From assembly GCF_963576615.1 (NCBI RefSeq), contig NC_088709.1:13770764-13834763 (forward strand): DNA of 64,000 nt, written 5' to 3'. Below, one piece after another: positions 44,299 to 51,087 of the stretch. Under the pieces are notes generated by a model. That model was not told the origin of the DNA, ran no database searches, and saw only the letters and a list, made by a program, of their open reading frames with translations. The stretch's first letter is position 1, and the number at the start of each line of letters is the position of its first letter. A program made the position numbers and the translations under genes. Source of the DNA: Watersipora subatra (taxonomy: Eukaryota; Bryozoa; Gymnolaemata; Cheilostomatida; Watersiporidae).

Positions 44299-47200
44299 TC
44301 ACGAGGCATCTTCGAGTCTGACAAACGTTAGTCGACCGTCTCCGCCACAAACTAGAAGAGGTTCGCTGGAGTGCCATGAAATTCCTGAGCCAGTACGTCG
44401 AGTGACACAGTGAGTAACCTGCATCAAAAATTGCTATCAATATTAACGCTGTCATGCAACACTGATGTGCTGACATTCCTATATGAGGCAGATTCACCAG
44501 AAATCATTTTAACAGTAGTGTTACATGTATACTCTATTAGTGAAAACGGATGTGACTAGGTCGAGATAGAACTGACACAAACGAATAATGCAAGCACCTG
44601 TTGATATGGGTAAATGAGTGCTCACCATAACTTCATCCGCATTTTCTGTTCTTGCCAATACTGTCACCCTCTTTTGACTAGCAATAGCTACGAACTTTGG
44701 ATTAGCTGGTGAGACTCTGATCTCCAAAGCACAGTTTATGGCTCCATCTATTTCTTGAAGAGATCTAGTAGCTATTGGTACACTGAAACAGTAGGTTCTA
44801 ATGAGTGCACCACAGTCAATGTATTCTGTTGGTTTCCAGTAACGTGATTCCTGACATATTTTACACGACCTGAGCACTTTCCCAAAGGTGTATTAAAATG
44901 ACTGAAACTTGTATTACCAGGCACACTGCATATCAAGCAAACTGAAATCGATTCATCGTACAGTCACACCTCGACAATGTGGTGTGTGTGTGTGTGTGTG
45001 TGACAGGTGTTAGGACACCTTGAGTGTCCCAACACTTGTCACACACACCACATTCTCTTATGTCGGGACACCTTGAGTGCCCCAACATACGAGAAAATTG
45101 AGATATGAGTTCAGTTTCAAACATGTTTCTTCCTTGACATATGAGCAATCTTTGAGATACGAGCAGGTTCTCGATGATATAATACTTGCCGATAATATAC
45201 ACTCACCAAGAGTTGGAGGTGTCAAAGGTGTGCCACTCAGAAGAAGAGATACTGTCAACTCTTGTGAAGTCACAGAGAGGCCAGTCAAATGATTTGGTGA
45301 TGTCGCTGCTCAAGCTCTCCAAGGACATGAACACTGTCATCGAGGGAATGTCATAGAGAAGAATGAGGCCTGAGATCTGTACAACTGCCAGCTAACAGAG
45401 GACAGAAAAAGAACACTTGCTATCCAGTAGTTTTAAAGATTTGCGAAAAGGCAAATTGGAAAGATGTTTAAAATTCAGAGCAAGACTGGTTGCTTAATGA
45501 TTAGGATTTAGGAGTTGTCAGCCTTGCTTCTGCAAGCCACCTTCAGAAGCATCCTAATGCAGGAATGGCTAAATTCTTTTACTGATGGTCTGCTGTAAAA
45601 TATCTGAATATTTGAAGATGGACAGTGAAAAGTCAGCAGTGATGTTACACTGCTGACTTTTCACCTTTACATCTTACCATGTTCTGTATATTTCCATTAC
45701 AGAACTTTGATTTCACCTAAAATGACTACCAGTTATTAATATTAATACCAGTTATTCTGTGATAACACATTCCCGTAGGGTTAGGTAAGATAGTAATGTT
45801 CATTATAAGATTATTTGGGGACAAATATTAAGTTATCCTAGGCCTTAAAATCAAGATCAGCAGTAATACTCAACTGATGACTTGTTATCTTTCCATCTTA
45901 CCATACTCTGTATATTTGCATCATAAAACTTTAATCTTCACCTAAAATGACTACCAGTTTTTAATGGGAAATTGTCTAAAAAATATACAGTGATAGAAAT
46001 TGTTGGAACTATGGGCTAAAACATTGAAAAAAATTAAAACATTTTTTAATTCAGGTGGTTTTTAAAAAGGTTTTTTAGTTCCCCTACCATAAAACGGATT
46101 ATTACTCTGTCTCTCTCTGTTGGTGTCGTCATCTCCTGACCCTTGGTCAACAGAGGGAGACATAGACATGAATTACTGTTGCCAGTGCTATGTAGATGAC
46201 TATCTACTCAGCTACAGGAAATGGCATTATTACAGCCTCTCCCTCTGTTAACCAAGGGTCGGGAGACAGGGACACCAAAAGAGAGAGACGGAGTAATAAT
46301 CCGTTTTACGGTAGCTGAACTAAAAACCTTTTTAAAAACCAACTGAATTAAAAAAAATTTTGTTCTATAATGTGTTATTAAAGAATGTGTTATACTACTA
46401 AAGTAGTGGTATATTACTATAGTAGTGGTATATTACTATAGTAGTGGTATATTACTATAGTAGTGTTATATTACTATAGTAGTGTTATATTACTATAGTA
46501 GTGTTATATTACTATAATAGTGTTATAATACTATAGTAGTGTTATATTACTATAGTAGTGTTATATTACTATAGTAGTGTTATATTACTATAATAGTGTT
46601 ATAATACTATAGTAGTGTTATATTACTATAGTAGTGTTATATTACTATAGCAGTAGCTCTTAAGTCAGTAAAGTTTGAAATTGTTTACATTTTTGTTTAC
46701 CTCTTTATTATAACAAAAAAACGATATTCTGACTTTTCCAATCTCAGCTGTTCTAAGAATATGAATTTTTGTTATATGCACTCATCTAAAGATATGAAGT
46801 ATTATGCAAGCAGAAGTAAAAATGTGAAGTCAGCAGCAGTTGAAAGTATCGTCACATAAAGGGATAACCAGGGGAGGCAGGTCTACAATTGGTTTTCATT
46901 TAGTCAAAATATAAAGAAATATCTCGTAAAGTTCTTCTGTTGCACCTACTTTAATGCTGAGCCGATTAGTTTTATACATTTTAGAATGAAAGTTTTTTTC
47001 AATTTTTAAAGTCTTTAAAAAAAAAGTTATATGACAAACTTTTTTTTCTTGAAATTTCTTCTTTGAATGCGAGCATTCCAAGACTGTATCTTCCTAAAGC
47101 ATTTTTATCCCTTGAACAAGGCTGTGAACACGGACTATACAAGGGGATTTCCTATCCTACCCTGCCTATCTTTCTCCGAATGAGCCACAGCAAGCTTTGA

Positions 47201-50200
47201 TAGAGTATAGAGATATATTTCGTGTTAAATTATTCCATCTAACCTTGGTGCTGTCATTCTGATGAAATTTAGCATCAATCCCAGAAGAGCTGAGTGGTAG
47301 TTCACAGTGTTTTCCTCCATCCAATAGGTTCCATACAATGCACTTGCAGTCATCACCCACGCTGACCAGGAGGTCTCCACTTTCATGGTCAAATGCGACA
47401 GCATTCACTGTCTTTTTATGACTGCCTATTATCTCTATCTCGCTATTGTCGCTCGTGTCTGTACGTATCATGCATATTCGACCATCCAGATCTCCGGCAC
47501 AAAGCCTGTATAAGTGAAGATTGTGAGTGCTGAAGTTGAGCAAACAACAACAGACCTACGCAGCAACATATGACAGAGTGACTTACACAATATCATATGG
47601 CAGAGAGACTTACACAACGTCACATGACAGAGAGACTTACACAACATCATATGGCAAAAAGACTCACACAACAACATATGACAGAGTGACTTACACAATA
47701 TCATATGACAGAGAGACTTACACAAAGTCACATGTCAGAGAGACTTACACAACATCATATGACAGAGAGACTTACACAACAACATATGACAGAGAGACTT
47801 ACACAACGTCATACGATAGAGAGAATTCCACTAAGTCACATGATAGAGAGACTTACACAACATCATATGATAGAGAGAATTCCACTAAGTCACATGATAG
47901 AGAGACTTACACAACATCATATGACAGAGAGAATTCCACTAAGTCACATGATAGAGAGACTTACACAACATCATATGATAGAGAGAATTCCACTAAGTCA
48001 CATGATAGAGAGACATACACAACATCATATGATAGAGAGACATACACAACATCATATGATAGAGAGAATTCCATTAAGTCACATGATAGAGAGAATTCCA
48101 CTAAGTCACATGATAGAGAGACATACACAACACCATATGACAGAGAGAATTCCACTAAGTCACATGATAGAGAGACATACACAACATCATATGATAGAGA
48201 GAATTCCACTAAGTCACATGATAGAGAGACTTACACAACATCATATGATAGAGAGAATTCCACTAAGTCACATGACAGAGAGAATTCCACTAAGTCATAT
48301 GATAGAGAGACATACACAACATCATATGATAGAGAGAATTCCACTAAGTCACATGATAGAGAGACTTACACAACATCATATGGCAAAGAGACTCACACAA
48401 CAACATATGACAGAGAGACTTAAACAACGTCATATGGCAAAGAGACTCACACAACAACATATGACAGAGAGACATAAACAACAACATATGACAGAGAGAC
48501 TCACACAACAACATATCGCTGTCTCAGTTCTCAAATCAGCTAACTGCGAAAACGAAAAAAATTGAGATAATTGCATTTTTTGGGTGTTTATAGGGTTACA
48601 AATATATCGACAAATTTTCTTTGTCTAGTTTGTTTTTCTCTGAGATCTCAGTCATACAAATCAGCTAAATGGTTTTATTCTACAGTGTCGTTAGAGCTCA
48701 AACCAGTCAACTGGTTTTTTCAATACAGACTATATGCTGGGTGTCCGTAAATTCCTGATACAACTTAAAAAATTCATTACTAAGCTGGTTGAGATATGTT
48801 AATCAGATTTGTTTTATTTTTATCAGTGATTACTAAAGTTTTTTTGTGTGAGGAAATTCCCTTTTCCTTTGCAGTCTTGGTTTCAGACAGTTAAAATTGC
48901 ATATAGTGTATTGTAAAACTGCTTCATTGCGTATACGCAACTCACAACTCAACACTGCTTTGTTGCAAGACTTGAACAAGCATGGAGGTTGCAAATAAGA
49001 GGCAAAAGAAAAATTGTATTGAAAAAAGTGAAGTTTTAAACCAGATATCTAGGTGAGTAGGTTTTGTACATCAAACCATATAATTTAAAAAAAACAACCT
49101 AAACTTTTACAGCATTTTTTGTCATCAGTAATTAATCTTGTTTTTGAATACCGCAAAAGGGTGCTCGTATTATTATCAGTTCTCCTTCTCTATATATAGC
49201 ATTAAATATGGTATGTTGTAGCAAACCTTGCAATGATGTTGGTACCAACACAACAAAAAGAATGTCATGTTATTCGCCACCTACTCAATATAAAACCAAA
49301 CAAAAAAAACTATGGAAGTCACCCTTTGGAAAAAAACACATCAAAATGTATAGTGAAATGACAAAAACAGGGCATTATCATCTGGTACGCTACACCAAGG
49401 TGAAGAAACTTGTTTACCGCACAGCTAGACCTCAAAATGTTTCTCATTGTAAGCACACGAGTAAGCCTAGTCTAAAATTGGATTCTGTTATAAGTAAAAC
49501 CCTGTCAAGAGGATTCTCATCTGAGATCAGATTAGCCAATGCTCCAGAAGACAAAAAAGGTGATAACGTTAGCTGAAGCAAAAGTTAAAGATCTCGAGTC
49601 AATGCTTCCTTTGTTGGCAGAAACAGACAAATCATACGTGAATTCGCTCCTAAAATAGACTAAGGTTACCATCATAAATTTGAGCTTATGTACCTTAATG
49701 TCGTAAAACTATCTGGTTGTTCATCTACAGAAAGCAAATACAGTATTTGTAAACTATTATATAGGACCTATTATAAACCAATGTAATTCTATGCGCTTGT
49801 GCATCCTCAGACGCATTGTTATACATCAATGATATATCAGTTGGCTGCTTTGTGCTCCAACTTTTAAACTAGTTTGTGAACAAACCAGTCAACTGGAATT
49901 ATAAAAAGTAGTTTTAGCCACAATGAATACTGATAGGATAAAAATATTTTACTTAGTCATCTTTGTCAGGATATTGTTTACTGGATTTTGAAAATTCTAA
50001 TTAATATTAAAATGGAATTACAGAAGACCAAAACTTGTAATCCATTTTGTGAATTTTGCTTTGTGTCCCACATGACTTGTTTGAAAACTCAGCCAGCGAT
50101 ATGACAGAGAGACTTACACAAAGTCACATGACAAAGAGAATTCCACTGAGTCACACGATAGAGAGACTTACACAACACCATATGATAGAGAGAATTCCAC

Positions 50201-51087
50201 CAAGTCACATGATAGAGAGACTTACACAACACCATATGACAGAGAGAATTCCACTAAGTCATATGATAGAGAGACATACACAACACCATATGACAGAGAG
50301 AATTCCACTAAGTCACATGATAGAGAGACATACACAACATCATATGACAGAGAGAATTCCACTAAGTCACATGATAGGGAGACTTACACAACATCATATG
50401 ATAGAGAGAATTCCACTAAGTCACATGATAGGGAGACTTACACAGCATCATATGACAGAGAGAATTCCACTAAGTCACATGATAGACTTACACAACATCA
50501 TATGATAGAGAGAATTCCACTAAGTCACATGATAGAGAGACTTACACAACATCATATGGTAGTGACTCAATAAAAGTTTTTGGACTCCAAGACAGGCAGG
50601 TTGTAGGCTTCTCTTGTAAATACTCTTTAACTACTTCGAGAATTTTGTCTCCCTGTAATAAAACAGGAAAGAATTATACTCTTGGATATTGCAACATTCT
50701 GCCCTTAATAATATTTTATACATACTGATTGCATTGATGAAGACTTCTATAACACGCTCAATTGTGACATTGAAAAGATCTGAAGAACAGTTCAGAACTT
50801 TGGCAGCCTGAAGAAAAGATTGTGTGATAAAATCATGTCAAGCCATTTTGTTATGGAAACAACATCTATTCATAACAACTATTGCCCGCTACCAAGCCTA
50901 TCTGCCATACCTCACGCTTTGGGTGCAGCTTAGCAATGGTAAGACGATAAGTGGGTTCTGGTGCGGAAGAGCTGACATAACTGGCAAAGCACATGAGAGA
51001 GTCGCAGTAGCTGTAGGGTGAGCATTCAAGACAGGTAACCGTACCTGTGTATAGCACATCTAGTGTTCTATCACTATCTCCATCCAT
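44299..51087 (-). CDS. NUP37: Nucleoporin Nup37 (WD-repeat)
   Basis: Member of the Nup107-160 Y complex of the nuclear pore, also linked to kinetochores in animals. Six exons in coding order: 50911-51087, 50546-50652, 47244-47505, 45207-45391, 44626-44869, 44299-44418. All joins keep frame and give 364 residues (human about 326). Family landmarks run in order: TCLECSPYSYCDSLM; CLSWSPKTFIESLP; then CAGDLDGRICMIRTD with VAFDHESGDLLVSVGDDCKC and IVWNL (the best WD repeat, exon 3); LILLYDIPSMTVFMSLES (exon 4); and the closing GSGISWHSSEPLLVCGGDGR, which matches the family's final strand. Exon 5 is longer than expected and is the least conserved. The first ATG directly follows TTTTAG, so a 5'UTR exon upstream is likely. 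Intron 2 is almost entirely a splice-donor-bearing tandem array plus a transposon. Introns 3 and 4 also hold repeats. Confidence 0.9.
44959..45200 (+). mobile_element. Tigger-like left end with inserted hairpin, NUP37 intron 4
   Basis: TA|CAGTCACACCTCGAC starts like the Tigger-type element at 54460. Later blocks (GTGCCCCAACATACGAGAAA, TTGAGATACGAGC) match its subterminal part. Between them sit a GT run and a hairpin (GGTGTTAGGACAC / GTGTCCCAACACT). No right end was found. It ends just before exon 4. Confidence 0.65.
45640..45970. repeat. Direct repeat pair in NUP37 intron 3
   Basis: Two roughly 95-bp copies, starting at about 45648 and 45870, share CATCTTACCATRYTCTGTAT and CACCTAAAATGACTACCAGT. 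Confidence 0.8.
46031..46362. mobile_element. Foldback MITE in NUP37 intron 3
   Basis: Arms of about 120 bp are imperfect inverted copies. The left reads TTAATTCAGGTGGTTTTTAA, then AAAACGGATTATTACTC, then GACCCTTGGTCAACAGAGG. The right is their complement. A short unique centre lies at about 46165-46230. The ends are T/A runs and no clear target duplication is visible. Confidence 0.8.
46385..46655. repeat. Minisatellite, 19-bp unit, in NUP37 intron 3
   Basis: About 14 copies of TATTACTATAGTAGTGKTA. The unit contains the self-complementary CTATAG. Confidence 0.95.
47552..48516. repeat. Splice-donor tandem array in NUP37 intron 2, block 1
   Basis: Built from two alternating 27-bp units: GATAGAGAGACTTACACAAC + ATCATAT, and GATAGAGAGAATTCCACTAA + GTCACAT. 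Together these form a 54-bp higher-order unit. On the NUP37 sense strand each first-type unit reads ATATGATGTTGT|GTAAGT, identical to the real exon 2 donor at 50546/50545. Because 27 is a multiple of three, ORFs of 298 and 286 codons appear in two plus-strand frames. I consider them fortuitous. Confidence 0.95.
48517..50098 (+). mobile_element. DNA transposon inserted in the array
   Basis: The 1582-bp insert is bounded by ATAT on both sides (48513-48516, 50099-50102; alternatively a TA duplication). Its ends are imperfect inverted repeats: left CGCTGTCTCAGTTCTCAAAT, right end inverted CGCTGGCTGAGTTTTCAAAC. A subterminal AAACCAGTCAACTGG motif occurs near both ends (about 48702 and 49885), inside a palindrome at the left. 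Removing the insert restores the array unit ACAACATATGACAGAG. I cannot name the superfamily. Confidence 0.8.
48982..49576 (+). CDS. Two-exon ORF of the array transposon, unknown protein
   Basis: I do not recognise the product. Exon 1 (48982-49052) starts MEVANKRQKKN and ends at an excellent donor, CTAG|GTGAGT. Exon 2 can start at 49234, after ATGTTGTAG, in the right phase, and continue to the TGA at 49576, giving about 138 residues. The protein is lysine-rich and basic throughout (for example YKTKQKKLWKSPFGKKH), which fits nucleic-acid binding. It is far too short for a full transposase, and no DDE residues or THAP pattern are evident. It may be the N-terminal remnant of a transposase or an accessory protein. 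Being entirely within the terminal repeats, it belongs to the element, and it lies antisense to NUP37. Confidence 0.45.
50099..50545. repeat. Splice-donor tandem array in NUP37 intron 2, block 2
   Basis: Continuation of block 1 after the transposon. It runs without a break into the genuine 5' splice site of exon 2. The last 13 bp of that exon (CATATGATGTTGT on the minus strand) are part of the final unit. Confidence 0.95.

Follow-up and report, generated by a model that had tools for sequence, protein, structure and literature searches.

How can an intron come to be filled with copies of its own 5′ splice site, and how could the exon in front of it still be spliced correctly? The second intron of the NUP37 gene of Watersipora subatra raises this question, and we analysed it in a window of 64,000 nt taken from one assembly (NC_088709.1:13,770,764-13,834,763), to which all coordinates refer unless a contig is named. 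In our view, the likely answer is that a near-neutral minisatellite grew from the NUP37 exon-intron junction and was later split by an insertion, with splicing still proceeding via the first donor.

NUP37 and its second intron

The minus strand carries a NUP37 orthologue with six exons and a coding sequence of 1008 nt without internal stop. Its 335-residue product matches human NUP37 with an E-value of 5.2e-28 across residues 79-328, whereas the first 78 residues are unaligned. The human alignment crosses the exon 2/exon 3 junction without a gap (SLPYDVV/LCAG in W. subatra, SLPPVIK/FCTS in human), and the donor at 50546/50545 is therefore well placed by homology. Homology and the open 1008-nt coding sequence agree on both the identity of the gene and the end of exon 2, as these had been given in an earlier, sequence-only reading of the locus. 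An 82-nt open segment with splice-like borders (50807-50726) was considered as an extra exon and dropped, since it disrupts the frame, which opens when exon 1 is joined straight to 50652-50546. The remaining introns of the model measure 258, 1852, 424 and 207 bp. Intron 3 carries a second minisatellite (46387-46654, 14 copies of a 19-bp unit) and an inverted-repeat element, MITE-like by eye, at 46040-46360. The features of the gene and of intron 2 are the following:

51087-50911, 50652-50546, 47505-47244, 45391-45207, 44782-44626 and 44418-44299, minus strand: six-exon NUP37 model with open coding sequence
50546..50652, minus strand: coding exon 2, 107 nt, its final 10 nt lying inside the first parsed repeat unit
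50529..50555, minus strand: first repeat unit, with the real donor TGT/GTAAGT at 50546/50545; matches the A-type consensus at 27/27 positions
50101..50545, minus strand: donor-side array block, in which A units (donor kept) alternate with B units (GGAATT)
48517..50100, no strand assigned: insertion splitting the array, 1584 bp, with imperfect inverted ends (16/19 by eye) and ATAT on each side
47543..48516, minus strand: acceptor-side array block, a core of AB units bordered on either side by varied A-type units, the last unit being degenerate
47506..47542, minus strand: acceptor tail of 37 nt, ending in TATACAG
47244..47505, minus strand: coding exon 3, placed by homology and the open spliced frame

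Intron 2 (50545-47506, minus strand) has 3040 bp, which are made up of 445 bp of array, the 1584-bp insert, 974 bp of array and the 37-bp acceptor tail. The two blocks together comprise 1419 bp of 27-bp tandem units and, as had been claimed, the array fills nearly all of the intron outside the insert, the acceptor tail being the only part that is neither. If array and insert are subtracted, very little of the intron is left. The insertion is probably a DNA transposon, and a Pfam search with its 142-codon open frame returned no family.

Tandem Repeats Finder reports a period of 54 bp, that is, two 27-mers, for 50101-50558 (92% matches) and 47570-48516 (87%), and a period of 81 bp for 47552-48516 (82%). 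With a period of 27/54 bp the array is a minisatellite in the usual sense of tandem units of ~10-100 bp. Our parse distinguishes 53 units, including the junction unit and the degenerate last one. On the sense strand, the A unit reads ATGATGTTGT/GTAAGT/CTCTCTATCAT and the B unit GTGACTTAGT/GGAATT/CTCTCTATCAT. Of the 53 units, 32 have GT where the donor lies (GTAAGT 20, GTATGT 7, GTGAGT 4 and GTAGGT 1) and the other 21 lack it (GGAATT 19, TTATGT 1 and TTAAGT 1), which bears out the earlier count of about thirty donor-bearing units, within a whole array of 53. Most donor-side units form AB dimers; the same block has an A unit that lacks 4 nt and, bordering the insert, a hybrid unit. Units vary most towards the two ends of the acceptor-side block. 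The hybrid (GTGACTTTGTGTAAGT...) occurs once per block and has four differences to A and four to B; it looks like an intermediate on the way to B, which lost the donor afterwards. On the antisense (plus) strand the array contains long open frames of 298 codons (47527-48423) and 162 codons (50085-50573), as expected from a unit of nine codons.

Decoy donors and the splicing of exon 2

The motif TGTGTRWGT occurs at 30 sites in intron 2, all 30 of them inside the two array blocks. Nineteen of these decoys match the 9-mer of the real donor exactly, over a 40-nt window each of the 30 shares 29 to 38 positions with the real site, and the longest identity between a decoy and the true junction extends over 13 nt upstream and 62 nt downstream. 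To give all decoys one and the same local donor sequence, as the sequence-only reading did, went too far, since 11 of the 30 deviate in the 9-mer and 21 of the 53 units have no GT. Nevertheless, a model of nine positions (-3 to +6) must give 19 decoys the same score as the true donor, and the array thus constitutes a natural competition experiment, in which donor choice would directly test the rules of exon definition, order and distance. The number of sites is by itself weak evidence: GTRWGT has a density of 1.6 per kb on the minus strand of the window and occurs 31 times (real donor included) in the 1419-bp array, but the composition of the array is donor-like, and 1000 first-order Markov reshufflings of it yielded 18 such sites on average and 35 at most. 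The real evidence for a donor array is the regular spacing and the identity of the units.

Read-through of exon 2 past the true donor gives V-stop, the TAA coming immediately, as the sequence-only reading had pointed out. Products spliced at a decoy would therefore carry this stop, and decoy use cannot yield a longer full protein. The retained TAA, which starts at intron base 2, would probably direct such products to nonsense-mediated decay. Owing to the 4-nt deletion in one A unit and to the insert, a single decoy among the 30 shares the reading frame of the real donor. The first donor is most likely the one still used: no other keeps the NUP37 frame open, and it completes a 107-nt exon that has its own acceptor close by, in keeping with exon definition. 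Exon definition or position is a plausible basis of correct splicing at this intron. With exon 2 closed by the first donor, the array is most likely tolerated, and most likely neutral or nearly so. In experiments with duplicated donors, the donor nearest the acceptor can be preferred, a preference that would be harmful in NUP37 intron 2.

Origin and possible function of the array

The repeat unit had been described as the end of exon 2 joined to the genuine donor, and this holds: the real junction itself forms the first unit, with the sequence of the A consensus. The further proposal, that the array grew from this junction, is supported by a similarity that reaches ~19 nt into exon 2. Exon and array are identical at 17 of the 19 positions from -19 to -1 (18 of 20 if -20 is included), and at 3 of 10 positions from -30 to -21. 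One 27-bp unit corresponds to nineteen exon bases plus eight intron bases, consistent with a duplicated block running from -19 to +8 or from -20 to +7, the edge being ambiguous by 1 nt (19+8 or 20+7). The end of exon 2 codes for SLPYDVV, and the next A unit, in frame, for SLSYDVV-stop. Human NUP37 has S-L-P at the same place of the ungapped alignment, so this exon 2 sequence probably predates the array; the argument from conservation is a moderate one, because frog NUP37 retains only the L. We thus regard an origin from the junction as the better reading, not as a proven one.

On this account, the 27-bp minisatellite would have begun when the exon 2/intron 2 boundary (~19 exon and 8 intron nt) was duplicated in tandem, and slippage or unequal exchange would have expanded it to ~52 units. 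One unit would have lost its donor by a change from GTAAGT to GGAATT and, paired with a donor-bearing unit, would have been amplified as a dimer of 54 bp, and an insertion, probably of a DNA transposon, would later have split the array. In this way the locus points to a route by which minisatellites can start from splice junctions and introns can grow longer.

An array that started within the intron, beside the donor, and whose edge reached the exon end by slippage or conversion would contain no exon-derived unit. We consider this unlikely, though it is the most serious of the competing explanations. The final 10 exon nt match the unit exactly, as they would at an array edge, and GTAAGT-bearing arrays are numerous elsewhere in the genome. 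Against it, positions -19 to -11 still match at 7 of 9, a level that is reached at 0.25% of positions when the array region is left out and at 0.32% when the entire window is counted; exon 2 aligns to human NUP37 gap-free over these same positions, and its codons there are partly common to the human gene.

A functional array is improbable. In such a case, U1-binding donors and CU-rich tracts would tune NUP37 by poison splicing, with a decay that depends on array length, or would block premature polyadenylation. CUCUCU has 43 matches in the two blocks (13 + 30), the predicted accessibility of the decoys is ~ten times that of any pre-mRNA 9-mer (medians 0.127 and 0.013), and decoy products would keep the TAA. 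However, the donor GT has been lost in 21 of the 53 units, and the neutral account is enough; that 32 units keep GT may hint at constraint, but co-amplification accounts for it equally well. PTBP1 and MATR3 are reported to repress splicing at multivalent sites in intronic LINE sequence of mammals (PMC6108849), and CU-rich repeats such as those of NUP37 might silence the decoys in a similar manner.

Finally, RNA structure had been named as one possible discriminator, concealing the decoys and keeping the true donor open, a reading that the predictions do not support and that we consider very unlikely. The donor-side block does fold far below its dinucleotide shuffles (z -9.2, 0/100 as low), but tandem arrays of shuffled units fold as well in 4/60 (AB), 31/60 (A) and 15/60 (B) cases, indicating that the z value is mostly an effect of tandem repetition. 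The true donor 9-mer, with a predicted accessibility of 0.086, is less accessible than the median decoy (range 0.003 to 0.449), so that in the model the array donors are fairly open and the true one is not favoured.

Known systems and the rest of the genome

The sequence-only reading knew of no described case like this one, but a precedent appeared in 1995, for the human gene IFI6 and its minisatellite with several splice donors (6-16, G1P3; Turri, Cuin and Porter, Nucleic Acids Res 23:1854, as cited in PMC2572611 and PMC4526556). According to what PMC4526556 states on IFI6 isoforms, two downstream repeat units serve as donors. In both genes minisatellite units carry splice donors of a coding gene, and the first unit of the NUP37 array holds the real exon end and donor, as in arrays of the IFI6 type. 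Several donors give rise to several mRNAs in IFI6, while in NUP37 a stop follows directly after the real donor. The two also differ in gene, animal and scale, the NUP37 array taking up 1419 of 3040 intron bases, being split by an insert, having about two fifths of its units without a donor and consisting in part of AB dimers with one dead donor each, in addition to its closed frame past the real donor. The IFI6 unit is reportedly shorter than that of NUP37. Invertebrate intronic minisatellites share with NUP37 their intron-borne monomers, and the passages considered do not describe junction-derived units; a limited literature search found no further case beyond IFI6. The NUP37 array is real and unusual, and it is less surprising because its basic arrangement is already known from IFI6.

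By two genome searches the array is not a widespread satellite, the finding that would have spoken against the sequence-only reading. Within the W. subatra genome (783.7 Mb, 239 contigs), a heuristic BLAST search with a 301-base query over the junction hit 12 places, all 12 at the NUP37 locus, and no other copy was found. A 25-base unit pattern allowing up to three mismatches matched 45 places, 43 of them in the NUP37 array and the other two single, three-mismatch matches (C2:5665742 and C5:20984776); the reversed control of the pattern matched 0 places in the genome.

Arrays that bear the donor word are another matter. Over the whole genome, GTAAGT triplets at minisatellite spacing gave 47,076 matches, compared with 14,523 for the reversed letters, and AAGTGT triplets gave 26,376 compared with 16,640 for TGTGAA, its own reversal, all of these figures being overlapping matches within arrays and not array counts. 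The GTAAGT figure exceeds those of the three other hexamers of the same letters, an excess that could come from arrays being seeded by donors or merely from a preference of the arrays for such words. With so many matches from GTAAGT arrays, an array over a splice junction is not astonishing. That splice donors are preferred minisatellite seeds in this genome, with NUP37 belonging to a whole class of junction arrays that force the spliceosome to choose among tens of identical donors, is a speculation to which we give a small chance. Three other GTAAGT arrays, picked for having matches (among the matches listed, which lie near the start of contig C1), were inspected by eye, one of them at its start only, and none showed a clear exon beside it. 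The same was true of a 31-bp repeat of ~three copies at 2452-2546 of the window, which has three minus-strand GTRWGT sites.

We do not claim a genome-wide richness in minisatellites, since arbitrary 5-kb stretches proved array-poor: three of six had no array and the others one to three, with arrays covering 0-2.7% of bases, compared with 4.7% in the window. Two stretches picked for their GTAAGT matches, C1:479500-484500 and C1:333500-337500, hold four distinct tandem arrays each, among them a 60-bp unit in ~27 copies and a 16-bp unit in ~37 copies.
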